Below, one piece after another: positions 26,387-58,318 of a DNA stretch of 64,000 bases. The DNA comes from Pycnococcus provasolii (lineage: Eukaryota > Chlorophyta > Pseudoscourfieldiophyceae > Pseudoscourfieldiales > Pycnococcaceae): positions 248,001 to 312,000 of the forward strand of contig OW568866.1 of assembly GCA_938743325.2 (NCBI GenBank). Direction: 5' to 3'. The notes beneath the pieces were generated by a model. It did no database searches, was not told the DNA's origin, and worked only from the letters and a program-made list of their open reading frames with translations. Within the stretch, counting starts at the first letter, position 1. Every line of letters begins with the position of its first letter. Made by a program: the position numbers and the translations under genes.

Positions 26387-28312
26387 TTACACAAAAGCCT
26401 CGTCGGCATCCTCCACCATCTCGCTCTCGCGCGAAGTCACGGGCAGAGGCGGGCGCAAAAACACCTCCACGCCCTTGGGCGCTGAGACGCGCAGCCAAGC
26501 AGAACTCGATTCGCCGTAGTTGCGACGCGCACCACGAGCGGTGCCAACGCGAATCCAACCGCCGATGCCGGACGGAGCGATATCGATTGCCGCGACGTCC
26601 GTGCGAGAATTTAGCTGCGCCTCAAACTCGCGAGCGATGTACATACCACCGCGGCGCGCCACCGCGGCAGCCCCGAACGGTGCGGTGTCGTCTTCACTTT
26701 CCTCCGAAGCCGCATCGAGCGTCTCGACAAGCCATGCAGCGCCATCCTCGTGCGTGGCAAGCCGCGTGATGCGAAGAGACTTTGGCCCGAGGAAGCGAAG
26801 CTCGAGCTCTGGCGGCGCGTCCTTGGCGACGTCAATGCGAATGAGCGCACCCCAGAACAGCGTCTGGCCAGCCAGCGGGGCGTCTGGGCCACCCACCGCG
26901 TAGCCGCGCATGGGAGAGCGGCCGGATGACTTGTGCAACGCCTTGATGTCATCTGTGCCAAGCATCTGCTCGAGTCTATGGTCGAGGTGCACGCCAGGCG
27001 TGTCAAGCAGCCGAGCACCGCTGCTGAAGGAGGCGAGCGCGAGCGGGCGCAGCGTCGTGCCCGGCATTGCGCTCACCGTTGGTTTAGCTCGCATCGCATC
27101 GTTCGACGCGGGGTCGAAGTTTGGCGACATGACGGTGCCCATGTCGTCAAGCATCGCATTGATGAAAGCGCTTTTGCCCACATTTGCGGCGCCGACCACG
27201 ACGACGTCGCGGCCGCGCTGCTCACGCCTGATAGCGGCGACTACATTTGGAAGGTTGCCACGTGGCATGCGCGTCGTTGGTGACGTAGACTGCTGGCTCT
27301 TCTGTCGGTTATTTTTGTTCTGGTTTCGAGGTGGTCGCCTTGTCGAGTCACTGCTGCTCGTCAGGTAGCATCCGGCGAGCGTGCCCACGCCACGTCGCTT
27401 AGCCTCAGACTCGAGCCATCGACGCACAGCCCCTGGCTCGCACGTCTTAGGAAGCAGGTCAGCCTTAGTTCCGACGACCATGATAGGGTTCCCACCCACG
27501 AGGTTTCGCACTCCTGTGAGAAGGCTCCCACTTGCGTCTGCGAGGTCGACGAGAAGCACGACGAGAACCTTCTGATCTGCATACGCCTGCAGTGCCGTTC
27601 TCAGTTCCTCGGGCGTCGAGACGAAGTCCTCGGCGGATAGCGCCGCCGCCCCAGCGACTCCCGAGACGGCGGACGTGAGGTTTCCGTGCGCAAGTCCCTG
27701 GCACCTTGCGCAGAGTGTCCTGGTGTTGTGCTGTTTATGCTTTCGCTTGAGTTTGTACGTCTCGTCGTCGACGAATCCGGCGGCGTTTGGCGTGATAATT
27801 TGCAGGCGTGCACCGCACCCATAGCACTTTCCTGTGACGTGTAAATCGTCGCCACCTTTCTTCATGTTTATTTTTGTATTTTCGGGGGATGCAGACGATG
27901 TTGTGGTTGTGGTTGTGTCCTGCTCCTGCTCCTGCTCCTCCTCCCAGTTGAGTTCATCTTGGAGTTCCCGCGCGAGGAGAGAGATTCCGTCGTCAAATAG
28001 AATTTCGTCGAGGTGGCCAATGTAATCGTCGACATCATTGCCCAAATTTTTAGCATCTAAATCTTCGCCAAGTTCGTTCGTAGCGAATTCACCACCACTA
28101 CTGTCATCCACCGAACTGTTGCCGCCGCCGCCGGCGTTCACATGAGACCGAGCCCTAAAAAGTGAGGGACGACCATGACAAGACGACGAAGTAACCCTAA
28201 CCCTCCCTTCTTGAAATAGAGGAGAATGACGACAGTGAGAGATAGAGCACTTGTTACGGAGCACGGAGGTTATTCTTCGAGGAGGAGTGGGAGTGGGAGG
28301 GAGCGCCGCCAT
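26387..28312 (-). CDS. Circularly permuted GTPase, BPG2/RIF1 (YqeH) type
   Basis: A 641-residue organellar GTPase of the YqeH/NOA1 group, needed for ribosome biogenesis in plastids or mitochondria. After a leader of about 150 residues comes a zinc finger (CYGCGARLQ ... CARCQGLAHG). The G motifs then occur in permuted order: G4 GTKADLLPK, G1 GAANVGKSAFINAM, G3 LDTPGVHLDH. Plants have two such proteins, BPG2 and RIF1/NOA1; I cannot choose. The ATG at 28312 is used. It converges with eIF2D, 35 bp away, and is divergent from the GPCR. Confidence 0.88.
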   Translation of the reverse strand: MAALPPTPTPPRRITSVLRNKCSISHCRHSPLFQEGRVRVTSSSCHGRPSLFRARSHVNAGGGGNSSVDDSSGGEFATNELGEDLDAKNLGNDVDDYIGHLDEILFDDGISLLARELQDELNWEEEQEQEQDTTTTTTSSASPENTKINMKKGGDDLHVTGKCYGCGARLQIITPNAAGFVDDETYKLKRKHKQHNTRTLCARCQGLAHGNLTSAVSGVAGAAALSAEDFVSTPEELRTALQAYADQKVLVVLLVDLADASGSLLTGVRNLVGGNPIMVVGTKADLLPKTCEPGAVRRWLESEAKRRGVGTLAGCYLTSSSDSTRRPPRNQNKNNRQKSQQSTSPTTRMPRGNLPNVVAAIRREQRGRDVVVVGAANVGKSAFINAMLDDMGTVMSPNFDPASNDAMRAKPTVSAMPGTTLRPLALASFSSGARLLDTPGVHLDHRLEQMLGTDDIKALHKSSGRSPMRGYAVGGPDAPLAGQTLFWGALIRIDVAKDAPPELELRFLGPKSLRITRLATHEDGAAWLVETLDAASEESEDDTAPFGAAAVARRGGMYIAREFEAQLNSRTDVAAIDIAPSGIGGWIRVGTARGARRNYGESSSAWLRVSAPKGVEVFLRPPLPVTSRESEMVEDADEAFV

Positions 28313-28404
28313 GACAAGCGTAAAATGATAAGGTCCGAAAAAGCGAAAAAGCGACCCGGACTTTTTTCCCCACCGGGTAAAGGTTTAGGGAGAGGGAGAC
28401 GGGT

Positions 28405-28425
28405 TTTAGGGGTTAGGGTTAGTGC
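28405..28425 (+). promoter_or_regulatory. TTAGGG-like motif in divergent promoter
   Basis: TTTTAGGGGTTAGGGTTAG lies about 140 bp before the GPCR ATG. A second motif, ACCCTAACCCTCCC near 28193, falls in the N-terminal codons or leader of the divergent GTPase gene. Confidence 0.4.
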
Positions 28426-28561
28426 CGTCCTCGCTGGAGGGCATGCACGTCCAGGTAGGTCGAGGTGGGTTGAGGTTGAGGCTGTTGTTGAGGCCGGTGC
28501 TCTCCCATCTCAAATCACGTATAGGTACACGTACCTTCCTACACGTGTGTCGTATAGTATC

Positions 28562-29782
28562 ATGATGGCGTCTCCGCTCAGCCTTGACGTTGACTTCGGT
28601 GTTGATTCAGCTCTTGTAAATTTCAGTCTCGTTTGGGATACGCACCGTCGTTGGCTTGGCTCGGATGCCGTATCATCGTCAACACAACCATCACCACCAA
28701 TATCATCCCCATCCCCATCCCCGTCCCACATGCTCCCGCCGCACGAAACGAGAGCACTCGCCCTCATGTCCGCCGTCCTCTCCGCATTCTCCACCACAGG
28801 ATCGCTCTTCATCGTACTCTCCATGCTCATATTCGACAAATTGAGAAAACAACCCGCCGGATCACTCATACTGTGGCTATCCGTCAGTGACGTCGGATAT
28901 GGCGTGTCGCAGGTGCTCCTATCCAAACCCGCGGACGTCGACGGTGCCATCGCCAAAGAGGCACACGGAACGGCGCTCTGCCAGACGCAGGCGATGCTCG
29001 CACAGTTCTTTGCCATCGCAAGCTTCGCGTGGACGGCAGCCATCGCGCACACCCTACACGCCGCGGTCGTCAAGAGAGACGTGCACCACAAAGAAGAGTG
29101 GTTCCCGAGATACCACAGGCTTATTTGGACGACGTGCTTCGTCTTCATGCTCATACCTCTCCTCGCAAACATCTACGGACCCACCGGGGGAGGGTTCTGC
29201 TGGATTAAGAACGACAGAACGGAAGGGCACGTGTTTCGCATGCTGCTATTCTACGTTCCGCTCTGGCTCGCCGTCGGTTACAACAGTATAAGCATGTGGA
29301 AGGTCACAAGTGTCATCACGCGCGCAATGCGCCTCGTCGTTGAGACTGACGGGGGCAACGACGTCGACGCCGCGGAAGATGCCCCGGATGCGACGATGGA
29401 CGACGACGAAAGCGCGAGCTCGGCGATGCGGCTGCGCAACTTGAAGCAGATGCGGCGCATTGGCCTGTTCCCGCTGATCTTAGTGGGTTGTTGGATGTTC
29501 GCAACCATCAACAGAATTTATGAGATGTTTGATGGATCGCCCGTCTACGGCCTCTACGCGCTCCAGGTGCTGAGCAGTAGCTTGAGTGGCTTGCTGAACG
29601 CATTGGTTTACGGGATGATGCCGTCCGTGCGGGGGGCGTGGTCTCGCGTTCTTGAGAAATGGCCAGTCGTCGGCCCGCTTCTGAGCAGTCAAGCGCGCGT
29701 CGGCACATCAAGCAGCGGCTACACAAGCTTTGGGAATGCGCTCGCCGCAGATGACGGCGACGGCGACATCCCTCCCCGCTAA
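28562..29782 (+). CDS. cAMP-receptor-like seven-helix receptor
   Basis: A 406-residue membrane protein of the Dictyostelium cAMP-receptor/plant GCR1-like GPCR family. A short extracellular N-terminus is followed by seven hydrophobic segments. TM1-2 read SAVLSAFSTTGSLFIVLSML and SLILWLSVSDVGYGVSQVLL; a Cys-bearing loop (TALCQTQAML) precedes TM3; FCWIKND lies before TM5. TM6 is LFPLILVGCWMFATIN, and TM7 contains LQVLSSSLSGLLNALVYGMM. Ligand and G-protein coupling are unknown. The frame is open further upstream, but the tandem ATGs at 28562 and 28565 give the expected length. Confidence 0.8.
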   Translation: MMASPLSLDVDFGVDSALVNFSLVWDTHRRWLGSDAVSSSTQPSPPISSPSPSPSHMLPPHETRALALMSAVLSAFSTTGSLFIVLSMLIFDKLRKQPAGSLILWLSVSDVGYGVSQVLLSKPADVDGAIAKEAHGTALCQTQAMLAQFFAIASFAWTAAIAHTLHAAVVKRDVHHKEEWFPRYHRLIWTTCFVFMLIPLLANIYGPTGGGFCWIKNDRTEGHVFRMLLFYVPLWLAVGYNSISMWKVTSVITRAMRLVVETDGGNDVDAAEDAPDATMDDDESASSAMRLRNLKQMRRIGLFPLILVGCWMFATINRIYEMFDGSPVYGLYALQVLSSSLSGLLNALVYGMMPSVRGAWSRVLEKWPVVGPLLSSQARVGTSSSGYTSFGNALAADDGDGDIPPR

Positions 29783-33395: not shown

Positions 33396-34289
33396 ATGCG
33401 CCGCTTCTACGTCGCGGGACTCGCACATGACGCCTCGTCAGAAGAGGTCGCGCGCATGCTCGCGCCCATGGGAAACGTGCTTGCTGTTGACATGCCACTG
33501 CCAAAGACGTTCAGACCGTTTGGAAAGCACCTCAGCCTCGCAACCAACCTCGCAACGTCGACGGAGGACACGTGTCGTGGATTCGCGTTCGTAGACGTCG
33601 AAGTCAAGGACGAACGTGCAGTCAGGCGCGTGACGGCGGCGTTCGAGGGAAGCAAGGCGAGGGGAGGCGGAAAGCTCAGAATTCGAGACGCCAAGCCGGC
33701 GTTCGACCTGGGCGAGTACAAGCGCAAGCGAGCGGAGGAGGAAATCGCGTGCGAAAAAGCTAGCGACGTGCACCAGCGGGAGAAAACCAGCGTGGTGGAG
33801 CCTGGGGCACACTTTGCACGCACGGTGCGCACACTGACCTTCACGCCTGACGCAAATCGCGTCGTCACATCGGCGACGAAGGCGAAGGCGAAGGCGAAGG
33901 AACTTCCAGTGGAAGCGCCAACGAAGACGAGAAAGATGGACAAGCGTGACAGTGCCACGCTCGTCGGACGACAAACCAACTATGACGACGACGACGACGA
34001 CGAGGAGGAGGAGGAGGAGGAGGAGGACTTCGAGGAGGCTCGTGCGAGAACGCGTTCCTTGCTTACAAGCTTTCTCGACGAGCGAGAGCAGAAGGAGGAG
34101 GAGAATGCTGTGCAAGCCGCGGCTCGCGTGGGAGCGCGCGTTGCAGCGGCGGTGTCACAGAGACACGAGGCGACGGAGGAGGAGGAGGAGGAGGATGGAT
34201 ACGATAGTGTCGTTGGGGAGGAAGAGGACAGCGACTCCGACGACTTTGGGATGAATATCGTCGGAGTCACGTCGTCGAAACGGCGATAG
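33396..34289 (+). CDS. RRM protein, possibly nucleolar (NOL8-like)
   Basis: A 297-residue protein that begins directly with an RNA-recognition motif: RRFYVAGLAHDASSEEVARM holds the RNP2 strand and CRGFAFVDV the RNP1 strand. The rest is charged, with a Lys-rich part and two Glu/Asp runs (DDDDDDEEEEEEEEDFEEA). An N-terminal RRM followed by an acidic tail recalls NOL8-like nucleolar proteins, but the link is weak. The ATG at 33396 starts the RRM exactly. A TTGTAACA poly(A)-like signal follows the stop. Confidence 0.7.
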   Translation: MRRFYVAGLAHDASSEEVARMLAPMGNVLAVDMPLPKTFRPFGKHLSLATNLATSTEDTCRGFAFVDVEVKDERAVRRVTAAFEGSKARGGGKLRIRDAKPAFDLGEYKRKRAEEEIACEKASDVHQREKTSVVEPGAHFARTVRTLTFTPDANRVVTSATKAKAKAKELPVEAPTKTRKMDKRDSATLVGRQTNYDDDDDDEEEEEEEEDFEEARARTRSLLTSFLDEREQKEEENAVQAAARVGARVAAAVSQRHEATEEEEEEDGYDSVVGEEEDSDSDDFGMNIVGVTSSKRR

Positions 34290-34466
34290 TTATTTGTATA
34301 ACATCTTGTAACATTATTCCTTCAGAGCGAGGAGCTTTGTCACGTAGCTGAAGAATCATGATAATCTCCAAAAGAACACCCAAAGACTTGCTGGGAAATG
34401 GCAAATTAGAATAAGCTGTGATACTTGTACCATGTCACCTCCCGAACCGGTATCCCCTGCTGAAAT

Positions 34467-34567
34467 CGGTGAGGGTCGGGAGATCGAAACTCCCTTTGAG
34501 TACTGTTCTGATGTAGTGTATTCTGATCATGCTTGAATAGCTCAGTGGAAGAGCATCACCTTTACAC
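34467..34567 (+). tRNA. Circularly permuted tRNA-Val (anticodon UAC)
   Basis: The 3' half lies upstream of the 5' half. The 3' half holds anticodon-stem strand GGTGA (34468-34472), variable loop GGGTC, T arm GGGAG-ATCGAAA-CTCCC (34478-34494), acceptor strand TTTGAGT (34495-34501) and discriminator A (34502). A 28-nt spacer follows. The 5' half has acceptor strand GCTTGAA (34531-34537), TA, D arm GCTC-AGTGGAA-GAGC (34540-34554), and anticodon-stem strand TCACC (34556-34560) with loop TTTACAC (34561-34567) and anticodon TAC. The anticodon stem pairs perfectly; the acceptor stem pairs over 7 bp with three G-U pairs. Seven Ts (34574-34580) form a pol III terminator. CCA is not encoded. The loop junction lies at about position 37/38, where such precursors are ligated. 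Confidence 0.85.
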
Positions 34568-34573
34568 ATCCTA

Positions 34574-34580
34574 TTTTTTT
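34574..34580 (+). terminator. Pol III T-run
   Basis: Seven consecutive Ts start 7 nt after the permuted tRNA's anticodon loop, as expected for a RNA polymerase III terminator. Confidence 0.7.
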
Positions 34581-34745
34581 GCGCCGTTTGACAAAAAAAA
34601 CTGATCGCATGAGGAAAAGTATGGCGGCGGGCGAGAGAGGGGAGGCCTGAGGCGGAGGGGGAACAAAAAGTCGGGCGAATCGGCAGGGGTTTGAAATGAA
34701 AGCTATGTTACGAAAAAATGAGTGATTATACAGGTACATTTTGTT

Positions 34746-35321
34746 CTAAGCGAGCGCGTAGAGACGGCTCGCGACGTCGCTCACCACCCAGTGGAAGGCG
34801 TCGAGCAAGCCTTCACCTGTCGCCGCTGAGCACGCAGCCACCTGCCAGTGTCTCGTCTTGCCCACGCTCTCGCCCGTCAGGCCAAGGCGCTTGGACACCT
34901 CGTCCACCGAAAGCGCGCCGCTCAGGTCCTGCTTATTCGCGAGCACCAGCAGCGTCGCGCCTAGAAGACGTTCCTCTCCCAGCAGAGCAGAAAGCTCGGC
35001 GGCGCACTCGTCCATCCGCATCACGTCGCCGCTGTCGACGACCCAGACGAGCGCGTCCGTCTTCTCGAAGTAGTTGCGCCAGTAGCCGCGCAGGCTGCGT
35101 TGGCCACCGACGTCCCACACGTTCAGTCGGTAGGACACGCCACCGACGTTGTACGCCATTGTCTTGATGTGGAAGCCCACGGTGGGTGCCAGGCCGGTGA
35201 TGTCTTCGCCGTTCACGCGGCGTACGACCGTCGTCTTGCCCGCGTTGTCGAGGCCAACCATGAGCAAGCGCATCTCGCGCTCTTTGCGCTTCACCTTGCG
35301 AATGATGGACAGGAGGCCCAT
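34746..35321 (-). CDS. ARL2: ADP-ribosylation-factor-like GTPase ARL2
   Basis: A 191-residue small GTPase of the ARL2 (plant TITAN5) type, a partner of tubulin cofactors in microtubule assembly. Nucleotide-binding motifs are all present: GLDNAGKTTVV (P-loop), the switch I Thr in APTVGFHIKTM, WDVGGQRSLRGYWRNYFE (switch II, the ARL2 form), NKQDLSGA and CSAATGEG. The ATG at 35321 gives the family length (184 in most species). MGLLSIIRKVKRKEREMRLL matches the ARL2 N-terminus, which is not myristoylated in known members. Confidence 0.92.
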   Translation of the reverse strand: MGLLSIIRKVKRKEREMRLLMVGLDNAGKTTVVRRVNGEDITGLAPTVGFHIKTMAYNVGGVSYRLNVWDVGGQRSLRGYWRNYFEKTDALVWVVDSGDVMRMDECAAELSALLGEERLLGATLLVLANKQDLSGALSVDEVSKRLGLTGESVGKTRHWQVAACSAATGEGLLDAFHWVVSDVASRLYALA

Positions 35322-54576: not shown

Positions 54577-56628
54577 TTACAAAGACGACAGTAGAGTCGA
54601 TGGAAAAAGGCAGTCCGTGCGTGCGACGTACTTCGTCTGCCCGCTGAGCACCGCGCCACCCTCGTGGAGAGCCGATTTGCGATCATCCCCGTGGGGGAAG
54701 CAAAGAACGCATCCAGCATGTGGCTTTACGTGCCGCCTATCGATGGCAACAACACGTCCGCTTGCATCGCGACGCGGAACGTAGAATGTGGTATGTCCAC
54801 CCTCGCAGCCGTCGCTGAGATAGATCAAGAACGTGAGCCTGCTTCTCTGCGCGCCGGCGAATGCGTCGCGAATGTACTTTCCTTTCTCGTCAAGCGCACA
54901 TGCAGGCCAGCTACCATCAAGATGTGGTCTGTATACGCCACCCTGAGAGTAACGAAAGAGTCGCAGGCGGCGATTGATTCCCGTCGCACCTGGAATATGC
55001 GGAGCAACTCGCTTGAAAATTCGTTCGTGCATGTGAGGATCGCACAGCCATTCCACGTTATCGATGCCAGTGGCGATTGGAGTGGATGCTCCCAAGTCCT
55101 CCCGAGTCGTCGTCTCCAAGATCGACGTCGTTGAGGCCGCGGTCGCGGCTGTCGCGCGCACGGGCTCGTCCCGTCGAAAGTGCAGTGCTTCTGCTGTTCG
55201 TACGATGCTAATGCATTCCCGTCGGCTCAGAACGTTGGTCAAAACAAACGCACCGGGCACGCCTGGAACGTCGAAACGGCTCACCCCAGCTTCCACAGTC
55301 GTCCAGGCTGGTATATTCTTAAAAACTGTGGATGCCGTGTCTTCGCAGTAGAACAGATCCAAGTCTTGATGATTGCGAGGCATTCGTTCCTGGCCTGACT
55401 CGTGGTACACGACGCGGAAGTGACTTTGCAGAGTGTCGCCGCCGTTAATTGCACTCTCCTCCCCTTGAGCATCCTCAACGACATTTGCCTCGCACGGTAT
55501 GGCAAACGGTTCCTGCTCCTCGACGGGTGCCAGCGGCTCGTCTGCTGTCGCACCATTCTCCTCGGCACACAGCATTTGCAATCCTTTTAATGCACCACCA
55601 CCCTCGACATCGCATGCGCGCAGAAAGACGCGGTAGCTTACATCCTCCGGCATGACATTTGGCTTGAAGTCGCCTCGTTCCGCCCTGATGTAAATGGACA
55701 GCGCCTCTCGCAGGCGCGGCGGATTCGCACTCACGCAGGCAAAGAGCACGAGGCGCACGGACGCCGCGTCTGGCGGAGTTGCGTCAGCACCCCCATCAGG
55801 CGCCATGAGCGCAAAAGTCTCCATAGCCTCCCGCCATCTGCCGTTCTTCTCGAGAGCGCTGAGAGCCGCGTTGTACGTTCGGGTGTTTGCACACTTCGCC
55901 TCGCGGGCCCTCTGCAGCAGAGCCAGCGCGTCTTGCGACCGGTCATCGGTAGCACGTGAGCACGCCAGCTGTGCATGCGAGTAGCTGATTGCATTGGCAC
56001 TCGGCATGCGTGCAAGGAGCGCAAGCGCCGCGTCAGCTTCGCCGAGCGTATCAAGCAACTTCAGCATAGCGTTGAACACAATCACGTCCGCGAGCTTGCG
56101 CGACTCTGCACGAGCGAGCAGCGCGCGCGCATCTTCGAGGTGCTGCCGCGTTCGACATGCCGTAATTGCAGTCGCGTATGCAATTGCATCGGGAGTGAGG
56201 TCTCCGCTGTTCTCCAGCTGCCCCATCGCCTCGAGAGCCGCCTTCGTGTCCCCCGCACCTCCGAAGAAGCGTATCGCCGCGCCGTACGTGACCGTGGACG
56301 CCTTCACGTGGCGCAGGCTTGGTATTGCGGTGCCCTCGCCCACTCCGCGCATAGCGTCAAACATGCGCCGCACCGTCGCCACGTCGCCTCCTCGTCCAGC
56401 CGCAGACATCGCCTTGTTCGCCTCCATGGTCGATATGGGACCGAGGCGTGACATCTGCTCGAGCGCCGAGAGGGCCATCGATGATGACGACGCCGCGTAT
56501 GCCGATGCGAGCAGCTTCAAGGCCGCACGTCGCGCGCCCGGATGCGAAACCGAATGCGACGGCGTAGCGGCATTCTCGGACCGCAGGTTTTGCTTTCTCT
56601 TCGCCTCGCGCGCACGCGTCTTTCCCAT
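54577..56628 (-). CDS. PPR protein fused to a 2-oxoglutarate/Fe(II) dioxygenase
   Basis: A 683-residue fusion. Residues 30-345 are pentatricopeptide-like helical repeats (for example VIVFNAMLKLLDTLGEADAA and TRTYNAALSALEKNGRWREA), which bind organellar RNA in most PPR proteins. The C-terminal 230 residues form a prolyl-4-hydroxylase-type jelly roll. Fe ligands appear in RYSQGGVYRPHLDGSW (His and Asp) and ALHEGGAVLSGQTKYVARTD (His, then the Lys for 2-oxoglutarate); GGHTTFYVP is the strand between. VLSRRECISIVRTAEAL starts the domain. The target, protein or RNA, is unknown. The frame is continuous, so the fusion needs no splicing. Confidence 0.85.
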   Translation of the reverse strand: MGKTRAREAKRKQNLRSENAATPSHSVSHPGARRAALKLLASAYAASSSSMALSALEQMSRLGPISTMEANKAMSAAGRGGDVATVRRMFDAMRGVGEGTAIPSLRHVKASTVTYGAAIRFFGGAGDTKAALEAMGQLENSGDLTPDAIAYATAITACRTRQHLEDARALLARAESRKLADVIVFNAMLKLLDTLGEADAALALLARMPSANAISYSHAQLACSRATDDRSQDALALLQRAREAKCANTRTYNAALSALEKNGRWREAMETFALMAPDGGADATPPDAASVRLVLFACVSANPPRLREALSIYIRAERGDFKPNVMPEDVSYRVFLRACDVEGGGALKGLQMLCAEENGATADEPLAPVEEQEPFAIPCEANVVEDAQGEESAINGGDTLQSHFRVVYHESGQERMPRNHQDLDLFYCEDTASTVFKNIPAWTTVEAGVSRFDVPGVPGAFVLTNVLSRRECISIVRTAEALHFRRDEPVRATAATAASTTSILETTTREDLGASTPIATGIDNVEWLCDPHMHERIFKRVAPHIPGATGINRRLRLFRYSQGGVYRPHLDGSWPACALDEKGKYIRDAFAGAQRSRLTFLIYLSDGCEGGHTTFYVPRRDASGRVVAIDRRHVKPHAGCVLCFPHGDDRKSALHEGGAVLSGQTKYVARTDCLFPSTLLSSL

Positions 56629-56806: not shown

Positions 56807-58318
56807 TCAGTAGAGCAAGTACCGCGCGCGCACGCCCAGAAAGGCGTCGCGTTCCGCTGACCACAGACGAGGCAACGACGCCACGGACGACGGATCGCGA
56901 TCGAGCGCCTCGCGAATGCGGCTCGTCCCCAGAAGTCGGTCGACCCACGCGATGCCACCGCCGGTGGCGACGCCAATGCCGTCAAAGCGCCAGCCGAACG
57001 AGCTTGCGGGATCTGCGGTCGTCATGAACGACGCGAGCAGCGCAAGCGCGATGCGAATCGGGTCGAACGATGGGTCGAGCATGCCGAGAGGCAGCGAGGA
57101 GGTATCCGGGTACACATGAACGCCGGCACAAGACACGCCAGCGCATCGGTCGGCGACGGGTGCGAAGAAGGATAGGCGAAAGCGCGCGTAGCTTGTTGTG
57201 CCGGCCAACGTGGCGGCGCGCTCCGCCACGTCGCGTCCAGCCCACGGAGCGCCAACTTGCACGAACGGCAGCGTAGTACCACGCCCCTCGGTCGCATTCG
57301 CGACGCCCTCGAAGAGGCCCATTCCAGGATAGATGAGAGCAGTGAGCGCATTGGGCATGTTCGGCGAGGGTGGCACGAACGGAAGACCGAGGTCGTTGAA
57401 GCTCGCACTGCGGCGGTAGGCGTTCATTGGGACGACCGTCAGCATGCCATCCAACGCGCTCGGCGGCACACCCGCAGCGTCGCCGACGAATTCGCCCACA
57501 AAGTAGCGAGCAACCTCGCCCACCGTCATTCCGTGCCTCAGCGCGATCGACTTTCGTCCGACGAGGCTGGAGAGGCGCGGCTCCACCGTCACCGGTCCTT
57601 GCACAGCAACGCCGCCGAGCGGGTTTGGCCTGTCAAGCACCACCACGCGCAAGCTCGTATCACCCATGCGATGCCTTGCCTCTGCGAACGCGACGAGCAG
57701 GTCGTAGAGCGTCCACACGTACGTGTAGAATCGGCAGCCCACGTCCTGGAGGTCTACGACGACCACAGACGCACCGTCGCGCGTCGCCTCGTCGACGAGC
57801 GCCTTGCCCGTCTTGCGATAGATGGAGCGCACGGGAAGTCCCGTGGAGGGGTCGATGCCGCCCTTCCCGCCCTCACCCGCGGGTGCGACGCCGCGGAAGC
57901 CATGCTCCGGCGCGAGAATGCTCACGGTGCGGACGTCAGGCGTGTGCAGCGCGAGTGCGTCGACGACGCTCGACAGGTTCGGAAGCACGGACGCTGCGTG
58001 CGCGAGAACTGCCACCACGGGCTTCACACCTCCGGTGTTAGGCAGGTATCGCGTAGGCTGCGCCAGGAACACCTCCGCGCCGAGCTGAAATGTGGCAGCC
58101 TTGTTGGCGTTCGCCATTCGGTTGGTCCACGCCGTCGTAAGGCTTGCGACAGTCAGTTGCTTTCGCCCTTGCATGTCGTCATCGTTCCTTTGTCCTGCGC
58201 GGGGAGTGTCAGCCGCGGCCGCCGCTGCCATCGCACCAGCGATTCCTCCGAGCCAACCGTTGCCATGTGCGAGCGCGAGCGAGCACACCGCCGCGACAAG
58301 ACACCCGAACGGCACCAT
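56807..58318 (-). CDS. NamZ-like exo-N-acetylmuramidase (DUF1343/YbbC)
   Basis: A 503-residue protein of the bacterial NamZ family (formerly YbbC/DUF1343), exo-enzymes that release N-acetylmuramic acid from peptidoglycan fragments. Conserved blocks are ILAPEHGFRG, STGLPVRSIYRKTGK, VVVDLQDVGCRFYTYVWTLY, VVVLDRPNPLGG, IALRHGMTVGEVARYF and IYPGMGLFEGVANATEGRGT. The ATG at 58318 starts a hydrophobic segment (VPFGCLVAAVCSLALAHG), a signal peptide or anchor. A eukaryotic copy implies transfer from bacteria or retention from the plastid ancestor. It could act on plastid peptidoglycan or on ingested or environmental bacterial walls. Confidence 0.85.
   Translation of the reverse strand: MVPFGCLVAAVCSLALAHGNGWLGGIAGAMAAAAAADTPRAGQRNDDDMQGRKQLTVASLTTAWTNRMANANKAATFQLGAEVFLAQPTRYLPNTGGVKPVVAVLAHAASVLPNLSSVVDALALHTPDVRTVSILAPEHGFRGVAPAGEGGKGGIDPSTGLPVRSIYRKTGKALVDEATRDGASVVVVDLQDVGCRFYTYVWTLYDLLVAFAEARHRMGDTSLRVVVLDRPNPLGGVAVQGPVTVEPRLSSLVGRKSIALRHGMTVGEVARYFVGEFVGDAAGVPPSALDGMLTVVPMNAYRRSASFNDLGLPFVPPSPNMPNALTALIYPGMGLFEGVANATEGRGTTLPFVQVGAPWAGRDVAERAATLAGTTSYARFRLSFFAPVADRCAGVSCAGVHVYPDTSSLPLGMLDPSFDPIRIALALLASFMTTADPASSFGWRFDGIGVATGGGIAWVDRLLGTSRIREALDRDPSSVASLPRLWSAERDAFLGVRARYLLY

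Follow-up and report, generated by a model that had tools for sequence, protein, structure and literature searches.

A tRNA gene with its two halves in reversed order was identified in the 64-kb window, i.e. the whole stretch of DNA that was analyzed, and it is best regarded as a circularly permuted tRNA-Val(UAC) gene of type II, with the junction between positions 37 and 38. We consider it probable that this is a functional nuclear gene and that it belongs to a photosynthetic eukaryote, with a green alga as the most likely host. The original prediction of such a gene is supported by the outcome of ARAGORN with the rejoined molecule, by the similarity to tRNA-Val, by a permuted covariance model and by the 37/38 junction.

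Results

The 3' half of the tRNA-Val(UAC) at 34467-34502, which comprises C38, positions 39-43, the variable loop (GGGTC), the T arm, the 3' strand of the acceptor stem and A73, is situated upstream of the 5' half at 34531-34566, which comprises the 5' strand of the acceptor stem, the D arm, the 5' strand of the anticodon stem and the loop up to A37. Both halves, as well as all other elements of the gene described below, are located on the + strand, and CCA is not encoded. The borders, which are based on the sequence, ARAGORN and the permuted covariance model, place the T arm and the 3' acceptor strand before the 5' acceptor strand, D arm and anticodon, exactly to the base as the original prediction had proposed. 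A spacer of 28 nt (34503-34530) separates A73 from position 1. Across this spacer, TTTGAGT (34495-34501) and GCTTGAA (34531-34537) form the predicted acceptor stem of 7 bp with 7/7 positions paired, including the three G·U pairs that had been mentioned as a warning sign. The anticipated pairing of GGTGA (34468-34472) with TCACC (34556-34560) was confirmed, and GGGAG (34478-34482) together with CTCCC (34490-34494) indeed closes a T loop of 7 nt, which reads ATCGAAA. The expected anticodon loop TTTACAC is present at 34561-34567 with the anticodon TAC at 34563-34565, which was also assigned by ARAGORN on the rejoined molecule and is predicted to read GUA. Upon rejoining, 21 of 21 cloverleaf pairs are intact, 12 of them bridging the two halves, and the conserved nucleotides U8, A14, G15, G18, G19, U33, A37, C48, U55, C56, A58 and A73 are all found.

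Putative signals for transcription were found inside and around the gene. An A-box-like sequence TAGCTCAGTGG covers positions 8-19 (34538-34548) and the B-box position (52-62) is occupied by AGATCGAAACT (34481-34491), which matches the usual consensus weakly. The run of seven T's that had been proposed as terminator was found at 34574-34580, following a trailer of 7 nt; it is the predicted stop for RNA polymerase III and, in a T-run scan, the sole run of at least four T's in 34251-34700, with none between the halves. The AT-rich stretch AAATTAGAATAA at 34403-34414, which precedes the 3' half by 53-64 nt, was noticed by eye and might act as a TATA-like element, given the AT-rich upstream regions described for other permuted genes (PMC3978253). 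The entire locus resides in a 456-bp stretch of 44% GC between an ORF of 381 aa, which ends at 34289 and has no Pfam match, and an ARL2-like gene downstream at 34746-35321 on the opposite strand. GUA accounts for 72 of the 954 Val codons in a manual selection of 26 ORFs.

In its native order the gene escapes ordinary searches. ARAGORN reported no tRNA gene in the 64-kb window, and Rfam yielded no match at the gathering level; at a permissive threshold only YrlA, snR5 and SNORD74 appeared, all below their cut-offs. The rejoined 72-mer, in contrast, was recognized by ARAGORN as tRNA-Val(tac). A strict scan for type II permuted genes, which demands the stems and conserved loop bases, found one match on both strands of the window, namely the site at 34467-34566, and none in 2,797 simulated 64-kb strands (179 Mb), its criteria being set after the candidate was known and the simulation preserving dinucleotide frequencies only. 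A covariance fit of the rejoined halves had been suggested as a check of the original prediction. A model was trained on 15 real tRNAs after permuting them in silico; it assigned 63 bits to the site, with a roughly calibrated E of 9.3e-19, against 11.5 and 8.9 bits for the remaining two matches in the window. When 37 of 131 control loci were searched with the same model, 173 matches up to E 10 were obtained, all of them below 63 bits (best 53.4 bits), while some of these loci had also supplied training tRNAs. A chance origin was rejected on the grounds of the strict scan, which had no match in simulated sequence, and of the 63 bits in the covariance model.

Other measures place the molecule less favorably. 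At 66.7, its profile score is higher than that of just 15.5% of the real class I tRNAs used for comparison, 148 of which remained from a set of 166 after 18 had been dropped by class, length or parse. The minimum-energy fold of the precursor differs from the cloverleaf (-34.8 vs -28.4 kcal/mol with the cloverleaf imposed). The rejoined molecule is modestly more stable than its shuffled versions (z -1.63, 14 of 200 being equally stable) and its best fold has a slipped anticodon arm (-22.5 vs -20.8). By eye, the leader sequence CTCCCGAACC (34439-34448) is nearly complementary to GGGTCGGGAG (34473-34482) in the variable loop and T stem, and the precursor might form this pairing at the expense of the cloverleaf. 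The folding and profile results, A54 and the G·U pairs count against a working tRNA, yet they are all compatible with function.

The surroundings of the junction contain a possible splicing motif of a relaxed form. The leader TGAA (34461-34464) represents the predicted leader strand of a 4-bp central helix with TTTA at 34561-34564 (loop positions 32-35), in which 4/4 pairs are possible, one being U·G. By chance such a helix is expected in about 2% of cases, since 1,265 of the 63,996 4-mers in the window (2.0%) can pair with TTTA. It is flanked by the 3-nt bulge ATC (34465-34467), where the predicted cut would fall between 34466 and 34467 according to the motif definition in PMC3978253, and by a second 3-nt stretch CAC (34565-34567), for which the motif analysis predicts a cut between 34566 and 34567. 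The 3-nt bulge and the 4-bp helix are compatible with the hBH motif, the relaxed form of BHB defined in the legend of Figure 2 in Soma 2014 (PMC3978253); the outer helix of BHB was not seen. Maturation could then follow the pathway of red and green algae, with the circular-intermediate model stemming from Cyanidioschyzon merolae (Soma et al. 2007, as reviewed in PMC3978253). In such a case RNA polymerase III would produce a transcript with the order leader, 3' half, spacer, 5' half and trailer, from which the tRNA splicing endonuclease would cut at 34466/34467 and 34566/34567, and a ligase would close the ends into a circle. The 28-nt spacer would subsequently be removed by tRNase Z and RNase P and CCA be added, resulting in a mature tRNA that would read GUA.

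The search for relatives of the tRNA body pointed mainly to bacteria and their phages. By blastn, the rejoined 72-mer matched 278 of 50,697 phage records, 217 of which are named Synechococcus phage, cyanophage or Prochlorococcus phage. The best phage match was the tRNA-Val of Synechococcus phage ACG-2014i (81.4% over 1-70, E 3e-10, 69 bits), and the annotation below 40 matches spread down the ranking was tRNA-Val in 25 cases, tRNA-Asp and tRNA-Thr in one case each and no tRNA in 13. In a plasmid collection 17 records matched, with Halomonas sp. PA16-9 at the top (85.5% over 5-66, E 8e-11, 73 bits), where the matched gene is a tRNA-Gly(gcc) according to ARAGORN with 56/72 identical positions. 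Matches were also found in two of 5,426 E. coli genomes, both in tRNA-Val. Among 164 distinct tRNAs the nearest one, with 59/72, was a Val(tac) from an IMG/VR contig, some other Val genes were as low as 68.5% and the Halomonas tRNA-Gly was closer than many of the Val genes. Because the tRNA-Gly(gcc) of Halomonas has the stronger BLAST score, the body by itself cannot distinguish between Val and Gly; it is the anticodon UAC, in a loop of 7 nt, that says Val and on which the predicted isotype is based. The Halomonas tRNA-Gly(GCC) is alike in the D arm, anticodon stem, variable loop and T stem, but differs in its GCC anticodon, its other acceptor stem, T54 and ordinary order. The tRNA-Val(UAC) of cyanophages and bacteria (S-SCSM2R, ACG-2014i) shares the length of 72 nt, the 7-nt D loop, the acceptor strand GCTYGAA and the TTTACAC loop, while it differs by the ordinary gene order and T54.

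The two halves do not behave alike in these comparisons. With the tRNA-Val(tac) of S-SCSM2R the 5' half shares 34 of 37 positions, the 3' half only 23 of 35. Correspondingly, a search with 34300-34600 in native order matched the 5' half to phage tRNA-Val (91.9% over 37 nt in S-SCSM2R), with no match to the 3' half among the ten matches listed, and the 3' half searched alone gave weak and mixed matches with E of 1 or more. Pattern searches of the viral contig set for either tRNA half or for the permuted acceptor-to-D-arm order found nothing, and one for a closer ordinary Val(UAC) returned none. The 5' acceptor strand GCTTGAA of the algal gene recurs in ordinary tRNA-Val(TAC) genes of cyanophage S-SCSM2R and of 12 IMG/VR contigs (L119-L131). 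The impression that the body looks bacterial or organellar was borne out as far as the best tRNA-Val matches of bacteria and phages agree in 57-59 of 72-73 positions compared to 38-44 for four human cytosolic tRNAs. This comparison covered bacterial, phage and human cytosolic tRNAs, and an organelle origin of the body may be possible.

The elbow of the molecule is unusual. The D loop AGTGGAA and the T loop ATCGAAA result in A20, A54 and A60, which the original prediction had not mentioned, together with G15, C48, A58 and A59, and there is no U17. Position 54 is T in all 132 parsable T loops from the 166 distinct tRNAs (34 were not counted), and A60 occurs in one of the 132. The rule for elongators in C. 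merolae and eukaryotes is U54 U55 C56 (PMC3978253); the permuted tRNA departs from it with A54 U55 C56. In the yeast initiator tRNA, A20, A54 and A60 are the non-canonical nucleotides of the elbow and likely conserved in eukaryotic initiators, with a network of m5C48, G15, A20 and A59, and the absence of U17 is characteristic (PMC10602860). The set of A20, A54 and A60 is thus common to the permuted tRNA-Val and the eukaryotic initiator tRNA-Met. Since A20 and a D loop of 7 nt also occur in ordinary tRNA-Val (loci L107 and L044), the odd part of the elbow is A54 in combination with A60. The permuted tRNA differs from the eukaryotic initiator by its anticodon UAC instead of CAU, by G1·U72 and by an anticodon stem other than GGG/CCC, the latter being a feature of initiator tRNAs. 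The initiator-like elbow may be genuine, or it may have arisen by chance in a gene under decay.

Discussion

The main rival to a working permuted gene is a pseudogene, i.e. a formerly working permuted (or tandem) tRNA-Val gene that is now unexpressed or uncharged. A54, A60, the three G·U pairs of the acceptor stem, the weak B box and the profile score at the 16th percentile of the 148 real tRNAs would fit with such decay. On the other hand, all 21 pairs are still of standard type, the listed conserved positions are kept except for 54, and both the T7 run and the putative junction motif are intact. Moreover, in comparison to the cyanophage acceptor GCTCGAA/TTCGAGC three changes have occurred, all of them from C to T and all retaining the pairing, whereby the cyanophage need not be the true ancestor. 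Decay is regarded as unlikely. It is very improbable that the site instead consists of remnants of two adjacent ordinary tRNA genes that have lost their outer halves, for example as nuclear scrap of organelle or phage DNA. The body looks bacterial, and the model can indeed mistake clusters of ordinary tRNA genes for a permuted gene, because the control matches in L120 (50.6 bits) and L123 (52.3 bits), the only two of the 173 that were placed, straddle two neighboring ordinary genes; these matches nevertheless scored lower than the 63 bits of our candidate, which surpass every match in the 37 loci searched. The flanks are no more similar to tRNA halves than shuffled sequences, of which 449 to 986 out of 1,000 did equally well, hence, there is no sign of lost outer halves, and no ordinary tRNA was found by ARAGORN. 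The explanation by two broken neighboring genes was rejected because the stems that connect the halves are fully paired (5/5 and 7/7), which is not expected of unrelated halves.

A structured RNA such as a Y RNA that only mimics a tRNA was considered as well, because YrlA (Rfam RF02553) was the best of the three permissive Rfam matches in native order (21.0 bits, 34470-34558). In the family model of YrlA, too, a T-arm-like stem precedes a D-arm-like stem, and this shared order explains the sub-threshold match. The score of 21 bits is far below the gathering score of 69, on which YrlA was rejected, and the anticodon arm of the site is complete, including UAC in a loop of 7 nt, A73 is present and the rejoined molecule resembles tRNA-Val; a mere mimic is therefore hardly credible.

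Compared to these alternatives, a circularly permuted tRNA-Val(UAC) gene remains our preferred interpretation, and its history can be discussed. It might be possible that the algal nucleus acquired a tRNA-Val(UAC) of bacterial type, either from an organelle or from a source resembling a cyanophage, and that this gene became permuted at 37/38 under the use of nuclear splicing and Pol III signals and gained the elbow of a eukaryotic initiator. Taken as a whole, this scenario appears rather unlikely; if it is true, a valine tRNA would be matured via a circle and would follow a route of T-loop modification unlike that of other elongators.

The neighboring genes in the window give some indications on the host. 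A peroxidase related to ascorbate peroxidases and a CDP-alcohol phosphatidyltransferase have N-terminal extensions that, by eye, resemble transit peptides of primary plastids. A flagellar gene for FAP119 at 38552-37592 (- strand) consists of two open pieces, probably split by a short intron, and its best PDB match is FAP119 of 7n6g, the Chlamydomonas axoneme. The putative plastid transit peptides together with the FAP119 gene suggest a flagellated green alga. The window furthermore contains a protein with matches to 7-TM receptors of the Dicty_CAR, secretin-type, rhodopsin-type and Frizzled families (28226-29779, + strand), an open frame with PPR repeats and a 2OG-Fe(II) oxygenase domain, which is either a fusion or two genes (54580-56628, - strand), and a NamZ exo-beta-N-acetylmuramidase (56810-58318, - strand), from a family of bacterial cell-wall enzymes, in a eukaryotic contig. 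Among the viral contigs, the ARL2 protein matched three loci with 35-39% identity and the neighboring DnaJ protein had no match; for a squalene/phytoene-synthase-like protein, nothing was found in PDB at E 1e-5.

Permuted tRNA genes have been described in a small number of algae and archaea. Table 1 of Soma 2014 contains 34 of them, none being specific for Val, and 18 of its 19 green-algal genes belong to type II (37/38), with the isotypes Ser, Leu, Cys, Arg, Asn and iMet (PMC3978253). The spacers in this table range from 1 to 74 bp overall and from 11 to 64 bp in green algae (PMC3978253). In a comparison based on the table, our candidate is similar to the green-algal entries with its upstream 3' half, the 37/38 junction and the 28-nt spacer that falls in their range. 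The permuted genes of Cyanidioschyzon merolae are alike in their layout, the AT-rich stretch upstream, the T run downstream and the missing CCA, but they include no Val among those tabled and use four junction types, 20/21, 37/38, 50/51 and 59/60 (PMC3978253). Two permuted Ser genes exist in the Amorphochlora nucleomorph (PMC4494063), and permuted genes of Auxenochlorella, shown only in a supplement, were the subject of a later report. A permuted tRNA-Val is not named in the titles or abstract openings of the papers listed in literature searches.

The present gene thus adds the isotype Val, which is absent from the table of 34 permuted genes (PMC3978253). As ARAGORN misses the gene in its native order, reliance on ordinary finders alone may leave apparent gaps in the tRNA sets of small algae. 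If the combination of a bacterial-type body with an initiator-type elbow is real and working, the gene would provide a test case for the domestication of foreign or organellar tRNA genes by permutation, and for the question whether A54, A20 and A60 mark initiation or can also suit a valine tRNA.
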